From: Terriglobus roseus
GTDB taxonomy: Bacteria; Acidobacteriota; Terriglobia; Terriglobales; Acidobacteriaceae
NCBI RefSeq assembly: GCF_900102185.1
Contig: NZ_LT629690.1
Span: 4,588,001 to 4,652,000 of the forward strand
Direction: 5' to 3'
DNA: 64,000 nt
In this document: positions 4,006-63,690 of the stretch, in pieces
Numbering within the stretch: the first letter of the stretch is position 1
Layout: each line of letters begins with the position of its first letter
Made by a program: the position numbers and the translations under genes
Notes under the pieces: generated by a model
Database searches by the model: none
The model's input: the letters and a program-made list of their open reading frames with translations, nothing else
Told to the model about the DNA's origin: nothing

Positions 4006-4925
4006 GGCGACTCCTCTTCTTGTTTTTGAGTTTCCTCTTCACGCTGCATGCTGCGGCTGCAACGTATTACGTGACCGTTGCAGGGCTGGGCGGTGAGCCG
4101 GATTACGAGCAGCGCTTCACGGCGAATGCAAAAGATTTAGATAAGGTGTTCCGCGGAATAACAGGTGCGCACGTTGTTACTTTGACTGGAGCGCAGGCCA
4201 CTGCAGCCCAGCTGCGCGCAGTGTTGTCGAATGTAGCCCAGCAAGCAACGGCAACTGATGACTTTGTACTGGTGCTCATTGGGCATGGATCGTTCGATGG
4301 AACGGAATACAAGTTCAACCTTGTGGGTCCAGATCTGACGGCTGCGGAGATCGCTGCGATGTGCGATCGCATTCCATCGAAGCGACAGTTGGTGGTGGAC
4401 ACCACGAGTTCAAGCGGTGGCGCAGTAGCTGCATTGGAGCGCAGTGGCCGTGTTGTGATCGCGGCGACGAAATCTGGCACAGAGAAAAATGCGACGGTCT
4501 TCGCGCGGTATTTTGTCGAATCGTTGCAGGATAGTTCTGCGGATGTGGATAAGAATGAATCGCTGACAGCAGCAGAGGCTTATACCTATGCGTCGCGCAA
4601 GACCGCAGCGTTTTATGAGTCGCAGAAGCGGTTGGCGACGGAGCATGCCGTGTTCAACGACACCGGCCATGGCGAAGCGGTACGCGATGCCGGGAATGGC
4701 CAAGGCCAATTGATGGCCAGCTTTACACTGCTGCGTTATGGCGCCGCGCAGAAGGCTGCGAGCGATCCGGCGAAGCAGTCACTCCTTGCGAAAAAGGAAG
4801 AGCTGGAACAGAAGATTGATGTGCTGAAGTACAACAAGGCCGCGATGGATCCCGCGGAGTACAAGCAGCAATTGACCGCGGCGTTGTTGGAACTAGCGCG
4901 AGTGCAGGGGGAATTGGATAAATGA
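4002..4925 (+). CDS. secreted caspase-fold (C13-like) protein, probably catalytically altered
   Basis: The start is the ATG at 4002, overlapping the previous stop; this gives 307 residues with a clear signal peptide ending near AAA at 18-20. The body looks like a clan CD caspase/legumain fold. The catalytic histidine motif IGHG (H95) is present. At the position where the nucleophile is expected (usually DAC-x-SG) the protein reads DTTSSSGG (133-140), so no cysteine is present. The last 45 residues are a predicted coiled coil. It could be a pseudo-protease or a binding scaffold. Coupling to both flanking genes (ATGA overlaps) ties it to the VWA/MoxR cluster. Fold assignment is from motifs only. 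Confidence 0.7.
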   Translation: MRRLLFLFLSFLFTLHAAAATYYVTVAGLGGEPDYEQRFTANAKDLDKVFRGITGAHVVTLTGAQATAAQLRAVLSNVAQQATATDDFVLVLIGHGSFDGTEYKFNLVGPDLTAAEIAAMCDRIPSKRQLVVDTTSSSGGAVAALERSGRVVIAATKSGTEKNATVFARYFVESLQDSSADVDKNESLTAAEAYTYASRKTAAFYESQKRLATEHAVFNDTGHGEAVRDAGNGQGQLMASFTLLRYGAAQKAASDPAKQSLLAKKEELEQKIDVLKYNKAAMDPAEYKQQLTAALLELARVQGELDK

Positions 4926-26971: not shown

Positions 26972-27045
26972 TGGGCGATCGACTAATGGTAGGTCAAGTG
27001 CCTTTGACGCACTTTGTCTAGGTTCGAATCCTAGTCGCCCAGCCA
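26972..27045 (+). tRNA. tRNA-Gln (anticodon TTG), CCA encoded
   Basis: The cloverleaf can be drawn by eye: acceptor TGGGCGA (26972-26978) pairs with TCGCCCA (27035-27041), followed by G and an encoded CCA. The anticodon stem AGTGC/GCACT closes the loop CTTTGAC, giving anticodon TTG for glutamine CAA codons. The T arm contains GGTTCGAATCC. It sits alone between ispE and prs on the same strand. Confidence 0.95.
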
Positions 27046-48396: not shown

Positions 48397-48613
48397 GCGA
48401 AAGGGCTCCGGTCCGGAAATTGGTAAAGCGTCGTGCCTGAGCGGGGACTTCCATTTCGCGACCTGCAAATGGCATTCTCCGATGCCGATTTGTCCGCTCC
48501 AGTGCGCTACTTCATTTATTTTACCCAATTCCGTGGGCAACGTTGCGAAACACACTGGCATCATGGCGTCACACGCTGCCACATCCGGGTGATGGCGCAT
48601 ATAGGCTAGGGGC

Positions 48614-49654
48614 ATGGGTCTGCTGGATCGTTTTCGCTCCTCAAAAGCCGCTTCTGAAGGGAAATTCGGCTTTGCCGTGGTCGGTCTTGGGCATATTGCC
48701 AAGCCTTTTCTGCAAGAACTCCGCGGTTCGCTCACCTGCCGTGTATCGGCCGTGGTCAGCGGCGACGCCGCGAAGGCCAGCGCCATCGCAAAGAAATATG
48801 GTGCAGAGGCCACCTATTCTTATGCCGATTTCGACCAGATCGCCAACAATCCAGCGATAGACGCCGTGTATCTCGCACTCCCCGTCAGCCTCCATCGCGA
48901 ATACACGGAACGCGCCGCAGCAGCAGGGAAGCATGTGTTGTGCGAGAAGCCAATGGCCTCCACCGCTGCCGACGCGGAAGCAATGATCGCTGCATGCCGG
49001 AACGCAGGTGTACGACTCAGCATTGCGTATCGCTGCCCGCACACCATGCCGCACAAGCATCTGCGCGAACTGATCAGGCAGGGCACATTCGGACCGCAAT
49101 CATCGTTGCGTATCGAAAGTGGATTTGGATTTGAGCTCAAGCCCGGCTGGCGCGATCAAGGCACGCTCGCGGGAGGCGGATCTCTCTGGGACGTAGGGAT
49201 TTACCCACTGAACGCAGCCCGTTTTCTGCTGGGTGAAGAGCCCATCGCCGTCGAAGATGCCTCCGCCACATGCGATGCCAACGGCATGGAGCGCGAGGTG
49301 CGCTGGACGAGCGTATTCCCATCAGGCGCGCGCGCAGTCTGTGTTTCTTCCTACGAACGCGATATCCCTGACACGTCGCGGATCACAGGGGAGTTCGGCA
49401 CCGCGCTGATGGCCCCTGCATTCCGCTGGCAGGAACCGTATCGCATCCGGGGTGAGGTCCATAACCCCGCCTACAATCGCCCCATGGAAATCAAGGTGCG
49501 TGAACTGGATTTTCCTGAGTTCCGCCTGGAAGCAGAGGAGTTAGCTGCTGCCGTCCGTGAAGACCGAAATACCATTACGCCGGGCGAAGAGGGGCTGAGG
49601 GATTTACATGTGATGGAAAACATTTACCATGTAGTGAATATCCCAGGTTTTTGA
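48614..49654 (+). CDS. Gfo/Idh/MocA family oxidoreductase
   Basis: The 346-residue protein has the Rossmann motif VGLGHIAKPF (near residue 25), the EKPMAST motif with the conserved lysine (near 112), and GGGSLWDVGIYPLNAARFLLGEEP, typical of the glucose-fructose oxidoreductase branch. It is an NAD(P)-dependent sugar oxidoreductase of unknown specificity. It is divergent from the YcbK-like gene and unrelated in context to the operon at 33747-39210. Confidence 0.9.
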   Translation: MGLLDRFRSSKAASEGKFGFAVVGLGHIAKPFLQELRGSLTCRVSAVVSGDAAKASAIAKKYGAEATYSYADFDQIANNPAIDAVYLALPVSLHREYTERAAAAGKHVLCEKPMASTAADAEAMIAACRNAGVRLSIAYRCPHTMPHKHLRELIRQGTFGPQSSLRIESGFGFELKPGWRDQGTLAGGGSLWDVGIYPLNAARFLLGEEPIAVEDASATCDANGMEREVRWTSVFPSGARAVCVSSYERDIPDTSRITGEFGTALMAPAFRWQEPYRIRGEVHNPAYNRPMEIKVRELDFPEFRLEAEELAAAVREDRNTITPGEEGLRDLHVMENIYHVVNIPGF

Positions 49655-49888
49655 AAACAGAGAATGCCTTAATTGCAACAGGAATGGTGCAAATATCAGG
49701 CGTCATTGTATTTAGACGAAATGAACCAGGAAAAAGTCGCGATGATTTCCTGGGGTTTGTGCTACGCTATTCGCAATCGTTTGACCCTCAGTTTTGGTTC
49801 TTTGCTCGCCCTGCCCAAACGCACTTGCAAAACCTGTATTGAGAGATTCAGCGAAACACCAACGAAGTATTAGGACAGGGACAAGGCA
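49655..49888 (+). other. long leader region before the cold-shock gene
   Basis: About 234 bp separate the oxidoreductase stop from the cold-shock start. No credible gene is present; a 63-codon open frame lacks a ribosome site. Cold-shock mRNAs often have long structured leaders, and the length fits, but I cannot define a promoter or fold by eye. Confidence 0.35.
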
Positions 49889-50089
49889 ATGGAACAGGGT
49901 AATGTGAAGTGGTTCAACGACGCTAAGGGTTTTGGATTCATCTCGCGCGACAACGGCGAGGATGTATTCGTTCACCACACCGCAATTCAGGCTCAGGGTT
50001 TCCGCTCGCTGCAGGAAGGCCAGCGCGTGAGCTTCAATGTGGTGAAGGGACCGAAGGGCTGGCAGGCTGAGAACGTACAGCCCGTCTAA
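49889..50089 (+). CDS. cold-shock domain protein
   Basis: The 66-residue protein is a single OB-fold cold-shock domain with RNP1 KGFGFI and RNP2 VFVHH, starting [11 protein letters not shown]. It binds single-stranded RNA or DNA and melts mRNA structure. ATG at 49889 follows an AGGGACAAGGCA ribosome region. A GC-rich hairpin follows at 50111. Confidence 0.96.
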
Positions 50090-50110
50090 CTCTATGAGTT
50101 TCTGATGGAA

Positions 50111-50136
50111 AGAGGGCGACCTTCGGGTCGCCCTCT
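50111..50136 (+). terminator. GC-rich hairpin after the cold-shock gene
   Basis: An eleven-base perfect stem, AGAGGGCGACC with its complement, is closed by a TTCG tetraloop. It is followed by TCGCG, not a U-run, so it may be an mRNA-stabilising or weak terminator hairpin. Confidence 0.6.
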
Positions 50137-50306
50137 TCGCGTCTGCAACAGAAAATTCACACCGACTGACGCGTACGACGAAATGCGCATCTTACCAACT
50201 GTGTGCATGCAGGAGGACTGCCCTCCCCCACTCAGAACCTTCCGGGTTCCTCTGCATGTTCGGAGACACAAATTTCATCGGGCCGTTAGGGCCAGGAGCA
50301 CACAGG

Positions 50307-50792
50307 ATGCGCGTTGTTGTGCAGGATAAGTACTACCTTCGTGATTTGCACCGCGAAATTGATCTTTACGACCGTAAGCTGATTCACCTGCAGAAGCATG
50401 AGGTCTTCGCGACCGAAACTCTGCGAGACGCTGCCGTGAAGAAGATGGCAACCAAGCGTGAAACCCTCGTGGCAACCGCACGGTCGCTCGCCGCTTCCGG
50501 CATCGAGTATCACGAGAGCGAGCTTCCCCGGTCATTCCGTCCGGAAGGCTGGACGGACAACGTCTGCCATCACGACGACACGGCTGCATCGGTTGAGGAA
50601 GTGGCTGCCGCTACCTCCGCCATGCGTGCTGCTGAAGGCATTTCAGCGTTCGGAAAAAAGGTGAACTATCTGCAGCAGCAGGCGCTTCGCGAAGAGGAAT
50701 CTCCTCTGGCGATTGCGTTGGGCTCGTGGCAGGACGATCTGGCTGCATACAAGAAGCGCCGCCAGAAGACCGCCCTGGCTGCTGCTATCTAA
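50307..50792 (+). CDS. hypothetical helical protein
   Basis: The ATG at 50307 gives 161 residues (MRVVVQDKYYLRDLHREIDLY); an in-frame ATG at 50256 would add 17. I do not recognise the family. The first 70 residues look like a long helical hairpin with many Lys, Arg and Glu residues, then a short segment with Trp, Cys and His (WTDNVCHHDD), then another helix region. No membrane segment is seen. A two-part hairpin follows. Confidence 0.65.
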   Translation: MRVVVQDKYYLRDLHREIDLYDRKLIHLQKHEVFATETLRDAAVKKMATKRETLVATARSLAASGIEYHESELPRSFRPEGWTDNVCHHDDTAASVEEVAAATSAMRAAEGISAFGKKVNYLQQQALREEESPLAIALGSWQDDLAAYKKRRQKTALAAAI

Positions 50793-50809
50793 ACAACGAA
50801 TCTCTTTTG

Positions 50810-50857
50810 CGGCGGGTGAAACGGTCTGAAAAGACCAGGTCGCCCGCCGTTTATCTT
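50810..50857 (+). terminator. two-part hairpin, probable terminator
   Basis: CGGCGGG (50810-50816) pairs with CCCGCCG (50843-50849), enclosing a second hairpin GGTCT-GAAA-AGACC (50823-50836). TTTATCTTT follows. It lies 18 bp after the hypothetical gene and before the glutathione peroxidase gene. Confidence 0.55.
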
Positions 50858-50915
50858 TCATTGTTTCTCCAAGCCGGAACCACGATTCGCTGGTACCGGC
50901 TTTATGCTGGATGCC

Positions 50916-51470
50916 ATGGCTTTCGATCTATATTCCGTACCTCTCACACGCATGGATGGCACCGTCACCACGCTGGGCGAGTATCGCGGCAAGGTGCTGC
51001 TGATTGTGAACGTTGCCTCAAAGTGCGGCCTCACGCCGCAGTACGATGCACTGGAAAAAACCTACAAGCGCTATCACGATGCCGGCTTTGAGGTTCTCGG
51101 CTTTCCTGCGAACGACTTCGCCGGACAGGAACCGGGTTCCAACGACGACATCCAGCAGTTCTGCCGCAGCACCTTTGGCGTGGACTTCCCCATGTTTTCG
51201 AAGATCACCGTCGTGGGGCCTTCGAAGCATCCGTTGTATGCAGCCATGATCGAAGCGCAGCCAAGCTCATCGGGCCCAGGCAAGCAAGCCATGGTGGATG
51301 GTCTGGTCAAGTTCGGTGTGAACCCGAATGAAGAACCAGAACTCCTCTGGAATTTTGAAAAGTTCCTGATCAGCCGCGAAGGCAACACCGTTGCTCGCTT
51401 CTCGCCAGACACAGTGCCCGATGCACCAGTGATCACCCAGGCAATTGAGCGCGAATTGGAAAAGCGCTAA
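50916..51470 (+). CDS. glutathione peroxidase family protein
   Basis: From the ATG at 50916 the product is 184 residues (a second ATG at 50904 would add four). VNVASKCGLTPQY carries the peroxidatic Cys; FPANDFAGQEPGSNDDIQQFC has the conserved Gln and a second Cys; LLWNFEKFLI has the catalytic Trp. This is the Cys-type enzyme, probably thioredoxin-dependent, reducing organic peroxides. A TAA stop is followed four bases later by the convergent gene. Confidence 0.93.
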   Translation: MAFDLYSVPLTRMDGTVTTLGEYRGKVLLIVNVASKCGLTPQYDALEKTYKRYHDAGFEVLGFPANDFAGQEPGSNDDIQQFCRSTFGVDFPMFSKITVVGPSKHPLYAAMIEAQPSSSGPGKQAMVDGLVKFGVNPNEEPELLWNFEKFLISREGNTVARFSPDTVPDAPVITQAIERELEKR

Positions 51471-51473
51471 CGC

Positions 51474-51806
51474 TTACAACGCATCAAGAAATGGTGGGAA
51501 CGTCAGCAACAAGCTTGCGGCTAGCAATACAAACGCCACGGCCACAATCTTCCTGACGTTCACATCCTTCTTCGCCCACAGGCGATGCAGCAACAGCCAC
51601 GTCGCAAGCCACACCGCGATCGTCACCGTGGTCACTCCGGAAAGCGCGCCGGTAGGGCGGTAGAAGATCAGCGCATTCTTGATAGCTGGACTCTTGTCAC
51701 CGGCAAGCGTCAGTACACCAAGCACAGCAGCGCCAACTCCCGCAGCCAACGTTGCTGCAGCACCAGCACCGTTCGGCAAGGAACGTGTCTCGGAAGCAGA
51801 GTTCAT
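51474..51806 (-). CDS. small membrane protein, second gene of a pair
   Basis: The ATG at 51806 overlaps the upstream stop (ATGA) and gives 110 residues. Three hydrophobic helices are predicted (about 18-38, 55-73, 85-103), preceded by a short polar N-terminus. I cannot name a family. Tight coupling to the gene at 51803-52369 suggests that the two act together. Confidence 0.72.
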   Translation of the reverse strand: MNSASETRSLPNGAGAAATLAAGVGAAVLGVLTLAGDKSPAIKNALIFYRPTGALSGVTTVTIAVWLATWLLLHRLWAKKDVNVRKIVAVAFVLLAASLLLTFPPFLDAL

Positions 51807-52369
51807 TTTGCCTCCGCCTGCGAGAACGTATAGACGCGCCCGCCAACCGTGGGCGCATATTTGTTGATCATCGCGCCCCACGTGCCCGCCACCGCTGCAG
51901 AAGCAAACGCCACAATGGTGAACCACAACACAGCACTGCGTAGATAGCGTTGGTTTTTAAGATCGCTGCCGTAGTGAAAAAACGTGGCTGCCGCCATCGT
52001 CATGGCAATCGGACTTAGCCACGCAACATGTTCTTTCCACTCCATGCCAAGCGTGTGCCAGCCAATCGTCGTTGGGCTCGACTTCAGCAACAGCTGCGGA
52101 TACATCGCCAAATCATGCGTCCCAGCCGGTGCCACGGCGCGGTACCAGGGATAGACAATGTAAGTCCCGCTAAGAACAGAGAGCCACGCCAGCAACGCCA
52201 TAGCCAGCAGATACCACTTCAATACAGCGTCCGTTTGGTCGCTGGTAGTGCCGTTGCTTCGACAGATACTCCAAAGCTGATAGACGGCAGCGGAACACGC
52301 CAGAAGAAACAGCGCACCAAAGCCCATGCCATGGATCAGCGTCCAAAGACCGCGAGATGTAATTTCCAT
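51803..52369 (-). CDS. five-helix membrane protein, first gene of a pair
   Basis: AGGCAGGACG before the ATG at 52369 decides the start; longer frames have no ribosome site. The 188-residue protein has about five membrane helices and several histidines in or near them (LIHGMGFGALF, GWHTLGMEWKEHVAWLSP, FFHYGSD), which could bind haem or metal. No family is recognised with confidence; a cytochrome-like or DUF2231-like protein is one possibility. It is the last chromosomal gene before the tRNA-derived island boundary. Confidence 0.75.
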   Translation of the reverse strand: MEITSRGLWTLIHGMGFGALFLLACSAAVYQLWSICRSNGTTSDQTDAVLKWYLLAMALLAWLSVLSGTYIVYPWYRAVAPAGTHDLAMYPQLLLKSSPTTIGWHTLGMEWKEHVAWLSPIAMTMAAATFFHYGSDLKNQRYLRSAVLWFTIVAFASAAVAGTWGAMINKYAPTVGGRVYTFSQAEAK

Positions 52370-52501
52370 CGTCCTGCCTTTTGCGCAAAGCATCGCTCTT
52401 TCTCGAAGAGGGAGCCGAACAGCTTCGCTTGTGTCGATACGGCAACATCTTAACGAACAAAGATGAAGGCAGGCTGAAGGGGAACGAATCCAAAACGGCA
52501 A

Positions 52502-52537
52502 ATGGTCCTATCAGCCGTAAGGGGCAAATAGGACCAT
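52502..52537 (-). terminator. terminator of the original tRNA-Pro transcript
   Basis: ATGGTCCTAT and ATAGGACCAT form a perfect ten-base stem with a 16-base loop; on the minus strand it is followed by TTTGCCGTTTT. It lies 30 bp downstream of the truncated tRNA-Pro 3' end, which is where the original tRNA gene would be expected to stop. Confidence 0.5.
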
Positions 52538-52566
52538 CGCGAAAATCGCTAAGCCACAGAAATTGA

Positions 52567-52611
52567 TGGTCGGGACGACTAGATTCGAACTAGCGACCTC
52601 ACCCACCCCAA
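52567..52611 (-). other. 3' fragment of a tRNA-Pro(GGG) gene; probable island attachment site
   Basis: On the minus strand the 45 bases begin in an anticodon loop (TTGGGGT, with GGG as anticodon). The 3' anticodon stem, the T arm (CTAGTTCGAATCTAG), the acceptor strand CGTCCCG, discriminator A and CCA follow. The matching 5' half (expected acceptor CGGGACG) is absent next to it. Loss of similarity exactly in the anticodon loop is what integration into the 3' half of a tRNA leaves behind. An open frame translating through here is an artefact of the tRNA sequence. Confidence 0.8.
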
Positions 52612-53357: not shown

Positions 53358-53560
53358 GCCATCCTAGCCCCATTCGTTCGTACCCACACATATTGAGCCA
53401 ACCGCTGTCAAAAAAGCGGCACGAAGGGCACGCCAGCCCAGATCAGCTGTTCCACTTTGGTTCTTTCAGTAGAGAGGATGGCAAATATTCCGTTAGAACC
53501 TAAGACCCTGCATGGTAGGCTGGCTCACACTCAAAATTGCCGTTCGAGAGCACGAAAAAA

Positions 53561-54526
53561 ATGCAGCCGTCAAAACCGTCGCGTAACAAAGTTGGTCAGA
53601 TTCTAGGGAAGTACAGCATCGCATCCGTCCGTAGTTGGTTGGCACGTAAGGGATTGCGCACCACGATGGGAAGCCGGGATGAAATGACAACGAAAGTCCA
53701 CGACCTGGTGGACAAGGAAAAGCTTACCGAAGATGACCTTATTGAAGGTGCCATCGGAATTGAAGAAGCGAGTGCAAAGCGCGTGTACCTGTATCGCATC
53801 TCGACTTCAGCAGCGGACTTAGAGAAGATTGACGCCCAATTGGAAGCTCTCCAAATCCCACTATCCACCGAACGCACTCCTTCTGTGTCACCGACGAAAA
53901 AGCCCAAAATGATGTACGCGCTGAACGACCCCACGGCGTTGCGGGTCAAATGGAACGAGCAGCACATTCGCACAAAAGTGGATAAAAAGAATGAGCGGTT
54001 TGACCCGGTGCCAGAACCCAAGATTGTTGTTCTCGTCGTTGATAAGAAGACGGGTCTAGTGCAAATTCGCTACGATAAACCTGGGGATAAGCACATTCAC
54101 GAGATTGACGGTGAACCCAAAGCCCAGGCCTATTTCGACTACTACAGGGAGCAGGCCGAAAATCTGCTTGGGCTTCCTTTGGAACCTATCGAACTGCGAA
54201 CTGGCTTAGAGAAGACATTGAAGATGGTTCCTCCTGTTGTGACTGTTGCGCATGTGGTCGATGAAGATGAAGAGGGTATTCAGTCGAAGCGTACCCAAAA
54301 GAAGATCGGTAAAGACTTGCGTGATACAAAAGCCTGGAATCAGATGATGCAAGACCCGATGGTACGCACTTATGAAGAGGCACCATTGCGTTGGAAACAC
54401 GGAATGACTGGCGGGAAACTCACCCGTGAGGTCTTCAGCAACGTGGATGCTGCAAACGGACAAGTACGGTTCGATGCACACTGCTCTGAGGAAGAAATAG
54501 ATTATGTCCTTGCTCAACTGGTTTAA
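53561..54526 (+). CDS. unknown protein, first gene of a three-gene cassette
   Basis: From the ATG at 53561 (GAGAG upstream) this is a 321-residue soluble, highly charged protein. The first 80 residues look like a small helical domain (ILGKYSIASVRSWLARKGL, then DLVDKEKLTEDDLIEGAIGIEEAS) that could be SAP-like or another nucleic-acid-binding fold. The middle (about 130-210) is beta-rich with KIVVLVVDKKTGLVQIRYDKPG. No catalytic motif is seen. Its end overlaps the next gene by 23 bp. I cannot assign a function. Confidence 0.7.
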   Translation: MQPSKPSRNKVGQILGKYSIASVRSWLARKGLRTTMGSRDEMTTKVHDLVDKEKLTEDDLIEGAIGIEEASAKRVYLYRISTSAADLEKIDAQLEALQIPLSTERTPSVSPTKKPKMMYALNDPTALRVKWNEQHIRTKVDKKNERFDPVPEPKIVVLVVDKKTGLVQIRYDKPGDKHIHEIDGEPKAQAYFDYYREQAENLLGLPLEPIELRTGLEKTLKMVPPVVTVAHVVDEDEEGIQSKRTQKKIGKDLRDTKAWNQMMQDPMVRTYEEAPLRWKHGMTGGKLTREVFSNVDAANGQVRFDAHCSEEEIDYVLAQLV

Positions 54527-54905
54527 GCGATCAAGCCCGTCGTCGCCCCAGCTCAATGCGCTTGTCAACAGGGTTGTTGTTTACCTGCGAAGCAGACCTG
54601 GTGGCGATCAAGTCGTGCCCAAAATCGTTGGGAAGGCTATAGGGGAAACGGAGATTCGTGCGCTTACTGCTCTACGTGTGCTTGAAGAACAGGGCATCGT
54701 TCACCATCATTTCGGCCTGTACTGCACGGAAAAGGGCATCCCGCTGGAGTCCATTGACGACCTGTCGCAGCTTCCGGCGGAGAAGTATTGCGATGCCTGC
54801 GATGAAGATCATTCTGAAGCTGAGGGGGAGTACAAGGTAGAAATCTACTACACGATAGACCCACGAAGGTTGGCACAATTCAGAGAACGTAAGGTGGCGG
54901 CCTAG
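54504..54905 (+). CDS. winged-helix-like protein with CxxC motif, second cassette gene
   Basis: The 133-residue protein has a likely winged-helix segment (about residues 15-75: ALVNRVVVYLRSRPGGDQV, then ETEIRALTALRVLEEQGIVHHHF), followed by YCDACDEDHSEAEGEYKVEIYY, a short CxxCxxxH stretch that could bind zinc, and a beta strand pair. The start lies 23 bp inside the previous gene, and the next gene begins three bases after the stop. DNA or RNA binding is a guess from the fold. Confidence 0.68.
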   Translation: MSLLNWFKRSSPSSPQLNALVNRVVVYLRSRPGGDQVVPKIVGKAIGETEIRALTALRVLEEQGIVHHHFGLYCTEKGIPLESIDDLSQLPAEKYCDACDEDHSEAEGEYKVEIYYTIDPRRLAQFRERKVAA

Positions 54906-54908
54906 CTG

Positions 54909-55430
54909 ATGGAACCCTCTTTCCTTCGTGAAGAGATCGCGCGATTGCGTGTGGAAGCAGAACGCGAGTCCGACCTCGGACTTAGGAAGGAGCACTACAA
55001 GACCATCCGCCATTTGCATCGTCAGTACCGAAAGGCTACAAGGCATCGTGCGCCCTGGTTTGGCTTTCTGCGAATCACTGGCTCATTTCTCGTCGTCTTT
55101 CTGCTCGCTCTATGGGGAGTAGTGAAGCTGACAAAAACGTACGGACGTGAAGAGACGATTACCGGCGGCTGGTTGGCTTGCATTGCCTTTGTGCTCATAT
55201 CCGTCACGATGCTTGTCATGCTAAGACTTATCAGCGCAGACACATATTCGACCGTTGTCGGTGGAGCACTGAAAACGCTCCAAAGTATATTGGGCGTCAA
55301 ACCCGAGACCTCGGATACGGAAAAGACTGACGCTAGGCCCGCAGAGCTTCCGAAACCGATAGAGTCATCTAGTTCTATTCAACACACCCCTCATGTCTCC
55401 TTTGATGAGGGCGGAGCTGATGGAACGTGA
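54909..55430 (+). CDS. two-TM protein, third cassette gene
   Basis: The 173-residue protein has a charged helical N-terminus (about residues 1-46), two membrane helices (about 52-75 and 88-108) and a cytosolic Pro/Glu/Ser-rich tail. Two-TM proteins with a helical N-terminal sensor are common effector types in bacterial immune modules; that role here is only inference from context. It begins three bases after the previous gene. Confidence 0.7.
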   Translation: MEPSFLREEIARLRVEAERESDLGLRKEHYKTIRHLHRQYRKATRHRAPWFGFLRITGSFLVVFLLALWGVVKLTKTYGREETITGGWLACIAFVLISVTMLVMLRLISADTYSTVVGGALKTLQSILGVKPETSDTEKTDARPAELPKPIESSSSIQHTPHVSFDEGGADGT

Positions 55431-55536: not shown

Positions 55537-55633
55537 GTCTTGACTTACTTCAACCGAGTTGCACTCCCCGTATCTTGCAGGGAATTGGGGGAAGCATCGC
55601 GATGTTCTCGACGAGATCGAAGGAGATGTGCAA

Positions 55634-56467
55634 ATGCCCTATACAGCCGAAATCAGCCGCAGCAATCCCACTTGTTTTATCTTCCTGTTGGACCAGTCCG
55701 GATCGATGGCCGAGAATTTTGGAGAAAGCGGTGTGCGGAAGGCGGATTTTCTCGCTGATGTCGTTAATCGCACCCTACATGATCTAGTCATTCGCTGCAC
55801 GCGCATGGAAGAGATACGTAGCTACTACCAAATTTCAATCATCGGGTACGGAGCATCCGTAGGTCCTGTTTTCAGCGGTTCGCTCAGCGGACGTTCGCAT
55901 GTGCCTGTGGGAGAGGTTGCCGATTTGCCCGCGCGGTTGGAGAACCGCACCAAAAGGGTTCCAGATGGTGCGGGCGGTCTTGTAGAACAGCAAGTCAGGT
56001 TTCCAGTATGGATTGATCCGACAGCGAACGGAGGCACTCCTATGTGCGATGCTTTCGGCCAGGTTCGCTCTCTACTAGAGCAGTGGCTTCATGAGCATCC
56101 CAACTGCTTTCCGCCAACGGTACTGCACATCACAGATGGTGAATCTACAGACGGCGATCCATCTGGGGTCGCCAACCAAATCTTGTCCATGGGGACTAGC
56201 GACGGTCCGGTGTTATTGTTCAATTGCCACGTCTCTTCGCGTCATACCGTGAAGATCGAATATCCGGGAGATGAATCGCAGCTGCCCGATGACTTTGCTC
56301 GCATGTTGTTCAAAATATCGACGCCACTTCCAGGAGTATTCCAGCAAGCGGCTTCCAATATGGGTCTCAAAACTTCCGACGGAGCGCGTGGCTTTGTCTT
56401 CAACGGGGACCCGGTATCCGTAGCGCAATTCTTCGAGATCGGGACACGGCCAGCGAATCTACGATGA
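55634..56467 (+). CDS. TerY-like VWA domain protein
   Basis: The ATG at 55634, preceded by AAGGAG, gives 277 residues; the frame upstream to 55559 lacks support. The whole protein is one VWA domain with an intact metal site: DQSGSM (D20, S22, S24), GGTPM for the Thr, and TDGESTDGD for the second Asp. No signal or membrane helix is seen, so it is cytosolic. Its stop overlaps the PP2C start, and a kinase follows: the order and pattern match the TerY-P triad described near tellurite-resistance-type systems. It probably acts as the metal-dependent scaffold or substrate of the other two. Confidence 0.85.
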   Translation: MPYTAEISRSNPTCFIFLLDQSGSMAENFGESGVRKADFLADVVNRTLHDLVIRCTRMEEIRSYYQISIIGYGASVGPVFSGSLSGRSHVPVGEVADLPARLENRTKRVPDGAGGLVEQQVRFPVWIDPTANGGTPMCDAFGQVRSLLEQWLHEHPNCFPPTVLHITDGESTDGDPSGVANQILSMGTSDGPVLLFNCHVSSRHTVKIEYPGDESQLPDDFARMLFKISTPLPGVFQQAASNMGLKTSDGARGFVFNGDPVSVAQFFEIGTRPANLR

Positions 56468-57243
56468 ACGGTAGTGGTTGGCATTTCTCCGTGTCACAAT
56501 TTCTGTTGCCCAAAGCTGGGTCGCTGGCCTCTGAATGTGAGGACGCAGCGGCGCTGTCTCTTAAGCAAGGTCGTTTCTGCGTCGCAGACGGCGCTACTGA
56601 AGCCTACGATTCAAGGCGATGGGCAAGACTGCTAACTAAGTGTTGGGCAGCTAGCAGCCACTTACTAACACGAGAAGAATTCGAGCCATGGCTTTCCGCC
56701 TTGGGGGACCGACTTGAACGTCGTTGGACCCGTCGAGCATTGCCGTGGTACGCAGAAGAAAAGGCAAGAGGGGGAGCCTTTGCTGCCTTCGTCGGGATTG
56801 CGTTCATCCCGTCGGAAAAATACCTCGCCTGGCAAGCGGTGGCATTGGGAGATAGTTGTCTAGTTCATCTCCGAAATAGAACGATTGTGAACGCGCTGCC
56901 GATTAGTGAGCCGGAGGCTTTTGGATATCACCCAACGCTTATCCCTTCCAAACTTCACAGACAGCAAGGAATTGGGGAGCAACTTACGGTCAGGTCCGGC
57001 AAGGTCGCATCGCACGATACATTCTTGTTGCTCACCGACGCAATTGCAGCTTGGTATCTCCGCATGTCCCTAGACGATTCTCCCCGTGTCCATGACTTGG
57101 CGCAACTATTGGATTCAAGGGACACTCTTGGCTTTGTTAATTTCATCGAGCAAGAACGTGACCAAAAGCGCCTTCGCAACGATGACGTGGCGATAATGCG
57201 AATCACTCTCGAAGGGCCGCCAGCTCACGCAGTGACGGTTTGA
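56464..57243 (+). CDS. PP2C-like protein phosphatase of the triad
   Basis: The 259-residue protein has the PP2C metal-site motifs: CEDAA near residue 26, VADGATEA near 40, ALGDSCLVHLR near 127, LLLTDAIAAW near 185 and NDDVAIMRI near the end. It should remove phosphate from Ser/Thr residues, presumably those added by the kinase encoded next. The start overlaps the VWA stop by four bases. It is shorter and more divergent than regulatory PP2Cs such as PphA, as in other TerY-type triads. Confidence 0.85.
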   Translation: MNGSGWHFSVSQFLLPKAGSLASECEDAAALSLKQGRFCVADGATEAYDSRRWARLLTKCWAASSHLLTREEFEPWLSALGDRLERRWTRRALPWYAEEKARGGAFAAFVGIAFIPSEKYLAWQAVALGDSCLVHLRNRTIVNALPISEPEAFGYHPTLIPSKLHRQQGIGEQLTVRSGKVASHDTFLLLTDAIAAWYLRMSLDDSPRVHDLAQLLDSRDTLGFVNFIEQERDQKRLRNDDVAIMRITLEGPPAHAVTV

Positions 57244-57253
57244 TGAATGCCTG

Positions 57254-58975
57254 ATGCCTACTGGTCCGTGGCCCAGCTCGCGCGATTACGTCGAAGCAGT
57301 TCAGAACCCCGGTGTGGCATTTCAAGACCCCGACCTTAGAACATCGGTTCCCGCAATAGACCGACTCGGTATGCCATTCGTCACATCTGGCCAGTTCGCC
57401 TATGTGTTCAAACTGAATACTTCTAGTAGCAAGGCGCAAGCGGTTCGCTGTTTTCGTGGTGCAGTTGGCGACCGACAAGACCGATATCAGAAAATCGACG
57501 ACCACCTAGACAAGGTTTCGGCTCCTTGCTTTGTGAGCTTCGAGTACGATCCTCAGGGCATCCTGGTTGGGGGCCAGCGATACCCGATTCAGGTGATGGA
57601 GTGGATAGGCGGCTATCCTCTCGACGTGTATCTTCCAAATGTTCTGGGTAGGAAGGACATGCTGAAGTTCCTGGCCGATCAATGGCTCAAGGCACTGGCA
57701 ACACTGCGCGATGGAGGCATGGCCCACGGCGATCTCCAGCACGGCAACGTTATCGTGGACGAGAGTAATTCCTTACGCCTTGTTGATCTCGATGGAATGT
57801 ATGTGCCCTCAATGGTGGGCTGGAAGTCTTCTGAACTTGGCCATCGCCACTACCAGCACCCCAAACGATCAGCGGAATATTTCGATGCTACCCTCGACAA
57901 CTTTTCAGGTCTCGTCATCCATCTTTCTCTGCTCGCTTTGGGAGAGCAGCCAAGTTTGTGGCAGGAATTTCATGACGAGAATCTTATCTTCGTCAAGAGC
58001 GATTTTGAGGCTCCACAGGCGTCCAAACTCTTAGGAAAAATCAAGCTCATTGGTGGAGACTGCAAGCGGCTAGCCGAAGCGCTTGAAAAGGCTTGCTCAG
58101 AAGACCCATCACGTTGTCCCTCAGTGTTGGACCTCATAGGGACTGTGCCGTCGAAGCTGCCTTCCTGGATGATCAACTCGCCAGTGGTTGCTGTCCAGCA
58201 GTCTACCCGCGAAGTGAAGCCCGGACAGGTACCACCGCCCGTCGTTTCGAACAGCTTCCCGTTCGCTGACCAGCGCAAAAGCGCTGGAAAGCCCTGGTAT
58301 CTCGCAACATCAGCGGGAGTTACTCCGCAACCTCAGGTCACATTTACGACCGTACTCCAGCCGGTCAAAATGTCAGTTCGTGAGGTTGCGCGTCAGACGG
58401 TGGCCCATGCGTTTCTTGGGGTCTTCGCCATCTGGTTGATCATCCCGTTGTTACGGATGCCGTTCGTTTGGCTTGGAGCTTCATCACTAACGGCCACTTG
58501 GCTGGCCATTGTTGCGTATCTGACCACATGCAGTGTGCTCGCCTATCGCCGCGTAGCCAGAGGAATAAAGCCACCGCTCGCCTCTCCGTCCGCGAACGTG
58601 AGTGTAGTCCAAGCGGTTTCAGCTCCGCCTCCTGCCGTACGTCCGGTGCCGAACGCAACACTAGGGGCAGTTCCTGTTCAATCGTCGCGCCTGATACAAA
58701 AGTATTCGCTTCTTGGCTCGCATCAGGCTGGCTTCTCAAATCCCGCCTCGCGACCTCAGCCTAAGCCTCAGCCTGGGCTTACACCGAGAAAAGTCATAAC
58801 CAGAAGCCCGGTTGCCATCCCGAACCCACTCGTCGGGAGTTCGATTAGGCTGATCTACCATAGGCCATCCTGCAAATGGGCCTTAAAGATTTCGCAACGC
58901 AACCGTGTGCGTTTCAGTTCCGAGGTAGATGCAAAAGCGCGTGGATACAGGCCGTGTAGCGTATGTTCACCATAG
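57254..58975 (+). CDS. protein kinase with C-terminal membrane and zinc-binding-like segments
   Basis: The 573-residue protein starts with a kinase domain: glycine-loop region MPFVTSGQFAYVFKL (near residue 40), AVRCF at the usual VAIK position (Arg instead of Lys there), catalytic loop HGDLQHGN (near 158) and VDLDGMY in place of DFG. The end of the kinase lobe is near residue 310. Two membrane helices follow (about 378-435), then a Pro-rich linker and a C-terminal motif HRPSCKWA...RPCSVC, a CxxC plus His/Cys pair that probably binds zinc. It lies 10 bp after the PP2C gene. Its substrates are unknown; the VWA protein is the obvious candidate. Confidence 0.85.
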   Translation: MPTGPWPSSRDYVEAVQNPGVAFQDPDLRTSVPAIDRLGMPFVTSGQFAYVFKLNTSSSKAQAVRCFRGAVGDRQDRYQKIDDHLDKVSAPCFVSFEYDPQGILVGGQRYPIQVMEWIGGYPLDVYLPNVLGRKDMLKFLADQWLKALATLRDGGMAHGDLQHGNVIVDESNSLRLVDLDGMYVPSMVGWKSSELGHRHYQHPKRSAEYFDATLDNFSGLVIHLSLLALGEQPSLWQEFHDENLIFVKSDFEAPQASKLLGKIKLIGGDCKRLAEALEKACSEDPSRCPSVLDLIGTVPSKLPSWMINSPVVAVQQSTREVKPGQVPPPVVSNSFPFADQRKSAGKPWYLATSAGVTPQPQVTFTTVLQPVKMSVREVARQTVAHAFLGVFAIWLIIPLLRMPFVWLGASSLTATWLAIVAYLTTCSVLAYRRVARGIKPPLASPSANVSVVQAVSAPPPAVRPVPNATLGAVPVQSSRLIQKYSLLGSHQAGFSNPASRPQPKPQPGLTPRKVITRSPVAIPNPLVGSSIRLIYHRPSCKWALKISQRNRVRFSSEVDAKARGYRPCSVCSP

Positions 58976-59176
58976 GTACTACCGGAACAAGCGGGCCATC
59001 AATCGTGATGACAATCTCCCTGCTAGACGACGCAGAACCCGCCGCAAAGCGCGCCCCTTGAGTAAAGCATCTACGTCACCGAGGAAGCGTGCACTGGCAT
59101 AGAGAATGGTCCGGAACTTACCTATTGTCATCGCCGCACTTGCTGATTCAATTCCGATTTCTAGGACCTAAGACGA

Positions 59177-59719
59177 ATGTCTGACCTGTTTACGAAGGCT
59201 GAGAAGGTCAAGACCGCTACAAAACTGTGGGTTATTGGGATTGCTTTGATCATTATGCTTAACATGCCTTACGGTGATGATCATACTCAACCTGCCCCCG
59301 TCATGACGCCAGCCCTCCATCCGCTATCCGCCGAACCGCAGTCTGTCGCGACAATATCCCCACCATCGAATACTCACCCCCCGCTGCCATCTTCAGTGAC
59401 AGGAGAATATGTCGGCTCGGTGAGTAATGAAACTGCGGCGCTATCAGCCAATTTTGCAGTGACGTTACGAGAGTCTAAAGGAAAGCTTTCTGGTTCTATG
59501 TCTGTCGAGCCTCCGCTCTATGGAAGTGGCCCCTTGGAAGGAACCGTGAGCGGACTCCATATGGCTTTTGCCGTGTCTAGTTCGATAGGAAGCATTGAGT
59601 TTGTTGGTACCCGCAGCCGACAGGGAATTGTAGGGACATATACGGTCATCCAGAAAACCGGCGGAACAGAAAAGGGGAGCTTCACGTTGAAACGATCTGC
59701 GATGAAGGTTCCTAAGTGA
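59177..59719 (+). CDS. membrane-anchored beta-domain protein
   Basis: The 180-residue protein has an N-terminal anchor (about residues 15-32), a Pro/Ser-rich linker, then a beta-strand-rich domain (about 75-170) with repeated L-S-G, G-S-M, G-T-V and F-V-G turns. A similar pattern is seen in the lipoprotein encoded at 60664-61653. No family is recognised. It lies 201 bp after the kinase gene; I see no gene in that gap. Confidence 0.65.
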   Translation: MSDLFTKAEKVKTATKLWVIGIALIIMLNMPYGDDHTQPAPVMTPALHPLSAEPQSVATISPPSNTHPPLPSSVTGEYVGSVSNETAALSANFAVTLRESKGKLSGSMSVEPPLYGSGPLEGTVSGLHMAFAVSSSIGSIEFVGTRSRQGIVGTYTVIQKTGGTEKGSFTLKRSAMKVPK

Positions 59720-59799: not shown

Positions 59800-60660
59800 T
59801 CAAGAAGACTTTCCGAAGGAAAGCGGACGTCCAAGATTGTTGAGGAAGACATCTGTCTTGTCGCAAATTAGGAGTTGAGCGTCCAAAGCAGCCAAGTAGT
59901 GTTCCGCTTTTTGAAGGGCACTCGGATTGCTGCGATCAACTAGTGATTCGACGCTGGTCTTCATATCGGTAAGCCATTTGCGAACGTTATTGTTTGACTT
60001 CTGTTCTTGTGCTGCGTCGAATTTCGCAAATGCGCTGATTGTGAACGAGTGAGATAAAGCCTGGAAGGGAAATAAAGCCGTCAGCTCTCCGTCGTTTTTG
60101 GTCATCCGCTTGAACATCTCCCCTAAACACCAGTCTCCATGTATGGCAACATATTTGGTGACATTGCGGTCTATCTCGACAAAAGGTGTTCCGCGTTCTT
60201 CAGCGGTTCTTTTGAATGCCGAGACACCTGCTTCGTTTTCGTATGCGCGGTGGTAGCCGGTGCCTACAAGCCGATTATCCTCATGGCAAATTGGACCGCG
60301 TGTTACATATCCCCTGCACATCACACCGAGTCGCATCAGTTGCATAACAAGCACCCAACAATGGTTGATTAGCTGAATAAGGCCCGCCGGAGACACTTCG
60401 CAAGACACGATAAGGGAATCAGAAATCTGGGTTACACGAAAGCTGAGATCACGGGATACGTGATGGCTTTCCGGACAGATACGTGCCCCACTCTTTTCTA
60501 GGCGTTCGCGGTGTTTCCGCTCCCCACTCTCTTCCAGTATGGCAAGCACTTGTCCCAACGTTGTATCGCCATTGTTCTCAGCTTTGACAACCAGTTGCTT
60601 GAATCCGAGGACATCCACAAAAGCCACGAACTTGTCCTGAAACTGAACGGCATTCCCCAT
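59800..60660 (-). CDS. nucleotidyl-cyclase-like protein
   Basis: This 286-residue protein has the pattern of divergent class III cyclases: FVAFVDVLGFKQLV (D16) resembles the first metal-binding strand FxDxxGF, and TQISDSLIVS (D81) the second. RGYVTRGPICHEDNRLVGTGYHRAYENE (about residues 116-142) matches the conserved glycine and arginine block of that uncharacterised family, which includes candidates for cyclic-nucleotide signalling in phage defence. It starts three bases after the lipoprotein gene, so the two form an operon. Activity is not proven, and no cyclic-nucleotide-binding effector is recognisable next to it. Confidence 0.6.
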   Translation of the reverse strand: MGNAVQFQDKFVAFVDVLGFKQLVVKAENNGDTTLGQVLAILEESGERKHRERLEKSGARICPESHHVSRDLSFRVTQISDSLIVSCEVSPAGLIQLINHCWVLVMQLMRLGVMCRGYVTRGPICHEDNRLVGTGYHRAYENEAGVSAFKRTAEERGTPFVEIDRNVTKYVAIHGDWCLGEMFKRMTKNDGELTALFPFQALSHSFTISAFAKFDAAQEQKSNNNVRKWLTDMKTSVESLVDRSNPSALQKAEHYLAALDAQLLICDKTDVFLNNLGRPLSFGKSS

Positions 60661-60663
60661 GCA

Positions 60664-61653
60664 CTACTCCAACCTCTGCGCGTCGTCCAGCAACTTTGCT
60701 TGATATTCTTTCTCACGTTTATAGACATTCTCCAAACGGCTGAGGCCCGCAACTATCGCTGCATACTTTTGATTAAACGCGGGAGCAGCATTAAGAAGAC
60801 GATTGCACGCCCCCTTATGCTCTTCGATTTCGGCTTGTGGCAGATTCCCACCTATCGGCTGAGTCTCGTGGCACCTTTGCGCCAATTCCGATACCTGATT
60901 CACTAAGGGAGCAATGTTCGTCTCTAACGATCTTTGCAATGCCTCTCCCTGAAAGTGCACTTGGTCGGTGTTCAGGGATATTTGAGTTGCAGCGACTTCA
61001 AGCTGTGACCGGGCAACCGCCCGACTAGGATTACCGACTAGCTGACGTTCCCGCGTAACGTATTCGCTCACTTTTGCAGTGACGGCTATATACGCCTTCT
61101 CAGCATTTGGAAACCGTCCCAGATGCACATCGGCCTCAGCATCGAACCGCTGCATTTGGCTAATCACCCGGTCAACGTGGGACAAGAAATCCTTCTCCGC
61201 CTGAAGCGTCCGCCGTTGTCCGGCAGCCGTTGCACGAGCAGAAATGATCGTTTGCGAGCGTTTGCTCTGGTCGTCTAGCTGTGCCTGATAGTCCGCCAAT
61301 GACGCACGCTTCAGGATGACCGGCGTGGATGGAACACCCGAAAGGGTAAGCGAATTGCCGTCGAACCTACCGGATAGCGTTGTCTGCGCCATCCCAAGGA
61401 TGCCACCACCTGACAGCATGACGTTCTCTCCATTCACTGCACCAGTGAGAGACACGGACTCATGGTCAATCTTGCCGCCCGGCTTCAGCACGGAAGAGAC
61501 GAGCTGCCCCGTGAGATGGTTATCTGGTGTGCGAACGAGCTGGAGCCAACAGACAGCTACCTCATCGTTCATCAGGTAGGAACCAGACACGTCTTTCTTA
61601 CACCCAGTCAACAGCACTAAGGCAGCAAGGCAGCACAAAGCGAAGCGATTCAT
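60664..61653 (-). CDS. lipoprotein with beta domain and coiled coil
   Basis: The 329-residue protein has a lipobox LTGC (Cys18) after a short hydrophobic signal. A beta-rich domain spans about residues 22-115, with turns of the kind seen in the protein at 59177-59719, and long helical, coiled-coil-like segments follow (about 120-329). It is membrane-anchored and probably extracytoplasmic. The cyclase-like gene starts three bases after its stop. A palindrome (61703-61717) lies 50 bp before its start and could regulate the pair. Confidence 0.7.
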   Translation of the reverse strand: MNRFALCCLAALVLLTGCKKDVSGSYLMNDEVAVCWLQLVRTPDNHLTGQLVSSVLKPGGKIDHESVSLTGAVNGENVMLSGGGILGMAQTTLSGRFDGNSLTLSGVPSTPVILKRASLADYQAQLDDQSKRSQTIISARATAAGQRRTLQAEKDFLSHVDRVISQMQRFDAEADVHLGRFPNAEKAYIAVTAKVSEYVTRERQLVGNPSRAVARSQLEVAATQISLNTDQVHFQGEALQRSLETNIAPLVNQVSELAQRCHETQPIGGNLPQAEIEEHKGACNRLLNAAPAFNQKYAAIVAGLSRLENVYKREKEYQAKLLDDAQRLE

Positions 61654-61736: not shown

Positions 61737-62603
61737 TCACAAGACCTTTTGCAAGACCTGACAGAGTAGATGGCAGGCCGCTTCGCTAAGAAGCAGTGCA
61801 TAATTTACGTCTTCTCCATGGGGGGTGAGACCTACCCGCTTGCTGAAATCCACGGGGTGCTTCTTGTCTGCCGAAGCAGTACGCAGGTCTGCCCCATGAG
61901 CGAGCTTATTGCGAAGCGTGTAGAGAGGAAGGGCAATCTCTTCGACTGTATAGGTTGGCGCATCAGATTTTGAATGCCAGTTGGGAAGTGCAAGTGTCTG
62001 AGGGCCTAGGCAATCGCAGAGTTTTTTCTTGAACTCTTCGCGTCCACCACTATCGAAAATTGCCTCTAACCCTGTGACCCAGAGAAGTCCGGCAATGTAA
62101 GGGTGGAAGTGCTCTAGGCCCAGTTGGAGTAGCGTGAGAGCGTTCTTCTGCTCTACGCTTTTCCCATCCATGACAGGTTGTATACGGTCGATCATGTCAG
62201 GGACTCGGGCAAGCATCTCATCATCGAACCTGTTCTTCCTGGCCCACTGGCCCGGCTCCATTGGCGGGCGTCGTTCTATCTGCTGCCGTCGATATACGAA
62301 GCCGAGGGTGCATATTGGCTTGATGACTTGAATAGCCATCAGACCGGCATAGAAGCGATTCGCGCCGCGTTCCGGGGCATCTCTCACTGACTCCCCCGGT
62401 ATCCATTGCGGGTATTCACACACAAGGTAGCGGGCCGCCTCTGCCTCCTGCTCCATCTCTCCCTGCCCTTGTGCCCAGTCCCAGCGGTGAGCAAGCAGTT
62501 GATCGTTTGGGCGCACCAATGACAGCCCTTCACCCAAGGAAATGCGATCCTCCCCTTCTCTCGCAATGCCTAATAGCGCGGTGTGAATGGTGTCTATGCT
62601 CAC
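61737..62603 (-). CDS. HEPN-like domain protein
   Basis: A GTG at 62603 gives 288 residues. Near the end, TLRNKLAHGADL contains R231-N-K-L-A-H236, the RX4H motif of HEPN ribonucleases; LLWVTGLEAIFDSGGREEFKKKL before it fits the helix-rich Apea-type HEPN family. The N-terminal 150 residues are probably a sensing or fold-specific part. HEPN proteins of this kind are often RNA-cleaving effectors in defence or toxin systems. The only upstream ribosome-like sequence is a (GA)9 tract, seven bases from the start. Confidence 0.65.
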   Translation of the reverse strand: MSIDTIHTALLGIAREGEDRISLGEGLSLVRPNDQLLAHRWDWAQGQGEMEQEAEAARYLVCEYPQWIPGESVRDAPERGANRFYAGLMAIQVIKPICTLGFVYRRQQIERRPPMEPGQWARKNRFDDEMLARVPDMIDRIQPVMDGKSVEQKNALTLLQLGLEHFHPYIAGLLWVTGLEAIFDSGGREEFKKKLCDCLGPQTLALPNWHSKSDAPTYTVEEIALPLYTLRNKLAHGADLRTASADKKHPVDFSKRVGLTPHGEDVNYALLLSEAACHLLCQVLQKVL

Positions 62604-63090: not shown

Positions 63091-63690
63091 CTATGCCGCT
63101 GCCTTGAGCTTCTGCACGGTGGTGGGTGAGACACCTAACTCCGCCGCGATCACACGCACGGACTTGCCCTCTTCGTGGAGCCTCTGAAACCGACGTACAA
63201 GCTTGTGGTCGTCCTCCGCCTTCGGGCGCCCGCCGACGCGGCCTTGTGCGCGTGCTCGTTCTAGCCCGGCGATGGTTCGCTCACTCAATCTAATGCGCTC
63301 CTGCTTTGCTATCGTCGCGAGGATACCGATCACTGCCTCTTTGAATACGCCCGTGGTGTCGAGGTATTGCTCCATGAAGCTGCGGAACTCCACGCCGTAG
63401 CTATCCAACCGTTTGAGATGATTCAAGGTCTCTCTTACGCCTTCACGTGAAAACCGGTCTAAACTCCAGAACAGCAGCACGTCGAACTCGCGCCGGGACG
63501 CAGCAGCAAACATCCTCTGGAACTGCTCGCGGTCGCTGTGCTTGCCGGTAGCCTTGTCCACATACTCTTGGACAATGCCCCACCCCTGCTTCTCAGCGAA
63601 CTGACGTAGCTCGCGTAACTGGTTCTCCGTATCCTGCCCTTTGTCCTTTGTGCTCACTCGTGCGTACAGCGCAACCGATACGTTCTGCAT
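63091..63690 (-). CDS. small serine recombinase (resolvase/invertase family)
   Basis: The 199-residue protein starts VALYARVSTKDKGQDTENQL, with Arg11 and catalytic Ser13. The conserved FWSLDRFSREG and the arm region EAVIGILATIAKQERIRLSERT are present, and a C-terminal helix-turn-helix (KSVRVIAAELGVSPTTVQ) binds DNA. It is the size of Tn3/Hin-type resolvases and invertases, not of the large serine integrases, so it probably resolves or inverts DNA rather than integrating the island. GAGGTGAGG lies before the ATG. An inverted repeat sits 30 bp upstream. Confidence 0.93.
   Translation of the reverse strand: MQNVSVALYARVSTKDKGQDTENQLRELRQFAEKQGWGIVQEYVDKATGKHSDREQFQRMFAAASRREFDVLLFWSLDRFSREGVRETLNHLKRLDSYGVEFRSFMEQYLDTTGVFKEAVIGILATIAKQERIRLSERTIAGLERARAQGRVGGRPKAEDDHKLVRRFQRLHEEGKSVRVIAAELGVSPTTVQKLKAAA

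Follow-up and report, generated by a model that had tools for sequence, protein, structure and literature searches.

A TerY-P-type gene triad with an Ada-tailed kinase on a tRNA-Pro integrative element of Terriglobus roseus

We analysed a 64,000-nucleotide stretch of Terriglobus roseus DNA (contig NZ_LT629690.1, positions 4,588,001 to 4,652,000; hereafter the window), which carries a triad of genes for a VWA protein, a phosphatase and a protein kinase. An earlier sequence-only reading had placed three overlapping or nearly touching genes at 55634-58975, and these limits proved exact to the base. The first gene (55634..56467, +) encodes a TerY-like VWA protein of 277 aa with an intact metal ion-dependent adhesion site (MIDAS), the second (56464..57243, +) a PP2C-type phosphatase of 259 aa, and the third (57254..58975, +) a protein kinase of 573 aa. 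The open reading frames (ORFs) of TerY and PP2C overlap by 4 bases, and 10 bases separate the PP2C gene from that of the kinase. The resemblance to TerY-P systems suggested by the same reading was borne out by PADLOC profiles, which matched in order: TerY (2e-102, model positions 1-277 of 277), PP2C (9.6e-37) and STK_OB (2.4e-67, residues 6-296). These three we take to be the components of PADLOC's TerY-P system. Pfam gave weaker matches; PP2C_2 (1e-7) exceeded its cut-off, and Pkinase (5.1e-5) and VWA (0.011) were below theirs. Scanning for promoters and terminators yielded no more than was obtained in shuffled sequences.

Conserved residues were counted in alignments that excluded the TerY fragments of loci L023 and L051, the distant TerY of L025, the PP2C fragments of L051 and L038, and the distant kinase of L025. 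The MIDAS residues D20, S22, S24, T135 and D168 were conserved in all 18 TerY rows, and the metal site is thus intact, as had been claimed. In the phosphatase, D27, D42, D130, D192 and D240 were present in 15 of 15 rows and D241 in 14. Residues H158, G159, D160, N165, D178 and D180 of the kinase were likewise conserved in all 15 aligned rows. The beta-3 position, a Lys in most kinases, is occupied by Arg here (R65) and in 12 of the 15 aligned kinases in total, the other three having Lys; no Lys is conserved in at least 14 of the 15 rows. Judging from the alignment, the beta-3 Arg is a common trait of the family and not a sign of decay in this copy. The sequence-only reading had proposed that loss of key residues in the kinase or phosphatase would speak against it; apart from this Lys-to-Arg change, they are present.

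In the third protein, a kinase domain (approximately residues 1-297) is followed by a linker rich in proline, two predicted membrane segments and a zinc tail of the Ada type. The STK_OB model was matched near its full length in four of the 11 kinases scanned with PADLOC (L033, L035, L036 and L050), and the match was restricted to the kinase half in the other seven, this copy included. A hydrophobicity scan of the stretch between kinase domain and tail predicted two membrane segments in the kinases of the window and L008. Helices at residues 375-401 and 410-435 appear in a low-confidence AlphaFold2 model of the kinase, which was excluded from the fold search because its confidence was too low.

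The tail (residues 527-573; 58832..58975, +) matches Pfam Ada_Zn_binding at 1.8e-5, with H536, C540, C568 and C571 as presumed ligands. Among the 15 kinases scanned with Pfam, this family was matched in the window copy and in those of L007 (3.6e-4), L021 (0.0013) and L008 (0.0027), and not in the other 11; the same four kinases end in an HxxxC...CxxC pattern. In an alignment with the N-terminal domain of Escherichia coli Ada (PDB 1adn, E 0.019), the zinc site has like spacing, C42, C69 and C72 of Ada corresponding to C540, C568 and C571. The counterpart of Ada C38, the methyl acceptor, is H536. Ada-like methyl transfer is therefore not expected of the kinase tail. The four Ada-tailed kinases, which originate from Acidobacteriota and one Verrucomicrobia record and thus from two phyla, formed one group in the kinase-domain tree (support 97/96). 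The same His-Cys-Cys-Cys (HCCC) module lies at the C-terminus of a thermonuclease from a Methanothrix plasmid (41% identity over kinase residues 511-573). Since the module also ends a thermonuclease, nucleic-acid binding by the tail is a reasonable guess. The remaining kinase tails, labelled by eye, were coiled-coil-like and similar long tails. As OB, coiled-coil-like or Ada-type tails are set on a constant triad core, the tail would be where contact with the signal or target is made.

The TerY protein was 87% identical to its counterpart at locus L007. Compared over the 50-84 kb stretch in window numbering, the DNA of the two loci was homologous at 55615-58241 (74%) and 58829-59283 (69%). The homology begins 19 bases ahead of the TerY ATG, is interrupted over the kinase linker (58242-58828) and spans the spacer between the kinase gene and a following reading frame, ORF4; the flanking DNA is unrelated. 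L007 has its own integrase near the cassette (PHROG 1.4e-28; Pfam only 0.0026). Ratios of nonsynonymous to synonymous substitution rates (dN/dS) against L007, computed for three regions with synonymous sites near saturation (TerY dS 2.3), were 0.03 for TerY, 0.05 for the kinase domain and 0.17 for the kinase tail. The nearly saturated synonymous sites and the shared set of four genes indicate that the two cassettes diverged long ago and that the four genes were kept together.

ORF4 (59177..59719, +; 180 aa) is a candidate fourth component of the system. It starts 201 bases after the kinase gene, its L007 homologue 202 bases after its own, and the two proteins are 58% identical over their common part; the homologue continues into Cys-containing repeats, which ORF4 lacks. 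The predicted structure comprises an N-terminal membrane helix and an eight-stranded beta-barrel, with a mean predicted local distance difference test (pLDDT) score of 67.7; most barrel blocks have values of 80-88 and two have 66 and 69. VIA-align gave Z scores of 12.4-14.1 over 90-107 residues. Most of the rows shown were avidins; since designed barrels and a domain of quinohemoprotein amine dehydrogenase scored equally, the likeness to avidins and other small beta-barrels is one of common fold only. No Foldseek match was obtained for ORF4 at E 0.001, the best being wilavidin (2.7e-3), and PADLOC gave no match. The Foldseek list includes Cap15 of CBASS (cyclic oligonucleotide-based antiphage signalling system) at E 0.011 and 0.024, a protein that joins membrane helices to a barrel and resembles the ORF4 barrel in fold. 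With a single membrane helix and an N-terminus that reads by eye as lysine-rich, the modelled barrel is probably periplasmic, outside the cytoplasm. A role as a Cap15-like effector was for this reason retained as a lead only.

At E 0.001, ORF4 matches were found in eight of 240 genomes of the family, counting this genome and that of L007. Clearer matches came from G102, G200 and G205 (the last with an internal stop), and those of three more genomes were at 1.1e-4 or worse. G102, G200 and G205 were within the sample searched for TerY and are not among the TerY matches listed. In G200, the gene for a DnaJ-membrane-barrel protein whose barrel is of the ORF4 type directly follows a VWA gene (L061 5915-7222, L055 233-886), which makes a second VWA/barrel pairing; a Mrr-type restriction gene lies 3.6 kb from this pair. 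The barrel of G102 belongs to a Sel1-repeat protein, whose gene has an integrase and an Abi_2 gene nearby. Locus L060 (1989-12276) contains an ORF4-type barrel with a Sel1 protein, a DnaJ-Sel1 protein, a weak SIR2/AbiH-like match, Abi_2 and an integrase. Anecdotally, then, the ORF4-type barrel is tied to defence-like surroundings. In the window itself, a putative lipoprotein (60664-61653, -) with no Pfam match has an N-terminal part that by eye resembles the ORF4 barrel pattern.

The left attachment site of the island carrying the triad is a 46-bp exact repeat of the tRNA-Pro(GGG) 3' end (52566..52611, -). ARAGORN detected no tRNA-Pro within the window, where the sole tRNA is a tRNA-Gln at 26972. 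The intact tRNA-Pro(GGG) is located 7.4 kb beyond the window end (L018 7401-7477). A tyrosine integrase (Pfam 8.6e-23, PHROG integrase 2.1e-61) ends 68 bases from it, the two genes spanning 6.1-7.5 kb past the window. The congener G031 has an intact tRNA-Pro into which the left flank (48496-52611, 83% identity) leads and with which the right flank (71392-71573, 91% identity) overlaps; about 3.4 kb without a match follow 71573, and homology is found again from 74966. In a second congener, G166, the right flank (71392-75909, 91% identity) meets 52493-52611 at the intact tRNA-Pro. Both flanks being joined at an intact tRNA-Pro in G031 and G166, the island is absent from both genomes. By sequence, a tRNA-targeted integrative element of about 18.8 kb carries the triad, and the tRNA-Pro island proposed for this locus is thereby confirmed. 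The element also contains a serine recombinase (63091-63690, -; Pfam Resolvase 1.1e-36), its second recombinase. About 0.1 kb away from its tRNA-Pro, G166 has a distinct block of roughly 1.6 kb of additional DNA (L070 about 4588-6236); the alignments on its two sides have a 23-base overlap, as a target duplication would produce.

Within the genus, TerY was found in one of 19 genomes, with no match in the 18 others listed. No match was found among 50,697 phage records, and 143 pattern matches in viral contigs yielded none that could be confirmed; two of 72,556 plasmid records, both cyanobacterial plasmids, were positive. The TerY profile had no sequence match among solved structures. TerD, the only Ter family searched, was absent from all 16 TerY-bearing genomes, this one included, and present in two of 14 control genomes; some genomes of this sample are incomplete, and those with weak TerY matches (G050, G216, G1053 and G1192) were left out. 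As far as TerD is concerned, the earlier statement that no other Ter genes are present holds true, and the sampled relatives lack the TerD operons whose constant company would have cast this copy as a truncated one.

When ORFs around 14 loci and on the island were compared, the triad recurred, and ORF4 recurred in L007. The comparison used a crude pick of the longest ORFs of at least 100 aa, which missed the TerY and PP2C of L037, and L024 and L025 were left out. We disregarded a handful of isolated matches among the other loci, which involved other kinases, short ORFs and an integrase. The upstream genes (53537-55430) did not recur in the 14 loci and were not included in the system. Seven neighbouring window proteins gave no PADLOC match at 0.05 and no convincing Pfam match, with one weak 7tm_7 hit at 0.035. 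The protein encoded at 59800-60660 (-) has a match at 8.9e-18 to PHROG 23933, a family without known function, and contains the stretches FVDVLGF, SDSLIV and RGYVTRG, which by eye presumably resemble the class III nucleotide cyclase fold; it had no match in PADLOC or among PDB sequences. At 61737-62603 (-), a protein with no family match contains RNKLAH, which by eye follows the RxxxxH pattern of HEPN RNases.

A TerY-P form with an STK-OB kinase was reportedly described by Gao et al. in 2020. The window triad shares with this form the order TerY, PP2C, kinase, which L035 and L036, two loci with OB-tailed kinases, also show, and a kinase domain that matches the STK_OB model; it differs in that membrane segments and the Ada-type zinc tail replace the OB part and that ORF4 follows. 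From the Ter tellurite operon it differs in the lack of TerD-family genes in this genome. In the literature covered, TerY-P triads are reported in connection with tellurite resistance and with restriction systems (PMC11090510) and have been proposed to be metal-sensing phosphorylation switches (Anantharaman et al. 2012 via PMC11090510). Their kinases carry a fused zinc ribbon when part of CoCoNuTs and a fused OB fold when part of antiphage modules that stand alone (PMC11090510). The CoCoNuT-associated form resembles the window system in the triad and in a zinc-binding module at the kinase C-terminus, suggested there to be a nucleic-acid binder; however, that module is named a zinc ribbon, and the main text does not contain the word Ada (PMC11090510). 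Beside the window triad, we recognised no CoCoNuT genes (McrBC-type GTPase, helicase or HEPN protein), no CoCoNuT model having been run. Locus L024 (8484-13636) has three TerY-type VWA genes, one PP2C and one kinase; duplicated VWA genes are reported in Type III-A CoCoNuTs (PMC11090510). A TerY-P from Pseudomonas aeruginosa defends PAO1 against Autographiviridae whether the phage dose is low or high, and most cells survive (PMC10889362); TerY-P is also active against T7-like phages (Gao et al. via PMC7699616). We found no report of an Ada-type tail on a TerY-P kinase in a search that did not extend to the founding papers, and the reported zinc ribbons could include related modules. The literature covered, again without the founding papers, names no activating signal.

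Judged by its sequences, the triad is a TerY-P system in the broad sense, with a MIDAS-bearing VWA protein, a PP2C and a kinase carrying an extra C-terminal domain. As it lacks the OB fold of the STK-OB form, it represents a separate variant of a known system; the triad itself is already known, and what is new is the Ada-tailed, OB-less kinase variant. We read the locus as a TerY-P-type three-gene phosphorylation switch on an integrative element, most likely acting in defence against phages or other mobile elements, a reading that we hold with about even confidence. It is supported by the three PADLOC matches in order, the conserved residues and the low dN/dS against L007; by the homology of the cassettes within unrelated flanks, with an integrase near the cassette in both the window and L007; and by the grouping of the Ada-tailed kinases and the published antiphage data on TerY-P. 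We infer from the published proposal and the tests of other TerY-P systems that phosphorylation of the VWA protein is switched on and off and that the locus responds to phage. The sequence-only reading, which had envisaged such a switch in response to stress or phage, is on the whole partly supported; the kinase tail and ORF4 did not figure in it.

The kinase would be anchored at the inner membrane by its predicted two-helix hairpin, with both the kinase domain and the Ada-type zinc module in the cytoplasm. Binding of a nucleic-acid sign of infection by the zinc module at the membrane may release kinase activity, whereupon the kinase would phosphorylate the metal-binding VWA protein and perhaps further targets, and the PP2C would reset the switch. 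ORF4 would be anchored beside the kinase and, with its probably periplasmic barrel, could either sense or execute at the envelope. A more specific proposal is a four-gene membrane branch, in which the HCCC module of the kinase detects foreign or damaged DNA at the inner membrane and the phosphorylation signal passes to the VWA protein and an envelope-acting ORF4; we consider this version doubtful.

Several observations weigh against the defence reading. The antiphage data come from other TerY-P systems, none of them Ada-tailed in the literature covered. Kinase catalysis is uncertain because Arg occupies the beta-3 Lys position. The STK_OB model was matched over positions 3-295 of 562 only, the OB half being absent, and the Ada_Zn_binding match exceeds its cut-off in the window copy alone, remaining under it in L007, L021 and L008. 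A single membrane segment passed the threshold in the L007 and L021 kinases. The AlphaFold2 model of the kinase, built with three sequences, has a mean pLDDT of 39.7 and a predicted template modelling score of 0.32, values too low for judging the fold. In the TerY tree, support for the Ada group is weak (57/52), and the tail, even if it binds zinc, need not bind DNA. Two other loci look broken: L051 combines a long kinase frame with fragments of TerY and PP2C, and on the 13.8-kb contig of L023 a TerY frame of 191 aa is present but neither PP2C nor kinase was matched. As to ORF4, its linkage with the triad is known from two loci, the window and L007; no homologue was found at the L008 and L021 loci, and ORF4-type barrels also occur in genomes without a TerY match.

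The same components could instead form a metal or envelope stress-response switch, with metal or redox state sensed by the VWA protein and the zinc tail, and with the cassette as fitness cargo of the element. The metal-binding VWA protein would fit such a function, as would the zinc tail and the probable location of ORF4 at the envelope, and TerY-P has been linked to tellurite resistance and metal sensing (Anantharaman et al. 2012 via PMC11090510). Against it speak the absence of TerD from the TerY-bearing genomes, the patchy occurrence in the genus on a mobile element, and the antiphage data for other TerY-P systems; we regard it as rather unlikely.

The beta-3 Arg, at the position of the ATP-anchoring Lys, raises the further question of a pseudokinase, a domain serving as a nucleotide- or protein-binding scaffold while the PP2C acts on other proteins. 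This could be combined with any of the other readings. Yet the catalytic Asp, the Asn and the metal-binding Asp (HGD, DxD) are retained in every aligned kinase row, the aligned PP2Cs keep their acidic residues, and three kinases of the family do have Lys at beta-3, which makes a pseudokinase improbable in our view. Equally improbable is that the cassette guards the integrative element against rivals or stabilises it and does not protect the cell against phage. TerY cassettes that have different integrases nearby, here and in the L007 genome, and those on the two cyanobacterial plasmids agree with such selfish maintenance, but location does not discriminate here, since defence systems often travel on mobile elements in the same way.

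The Ada-type tail with its predicted zinc ligands provides concrete residues to mutate, and the predicted membrane segments of the kinase suggest the site where detection may take place.

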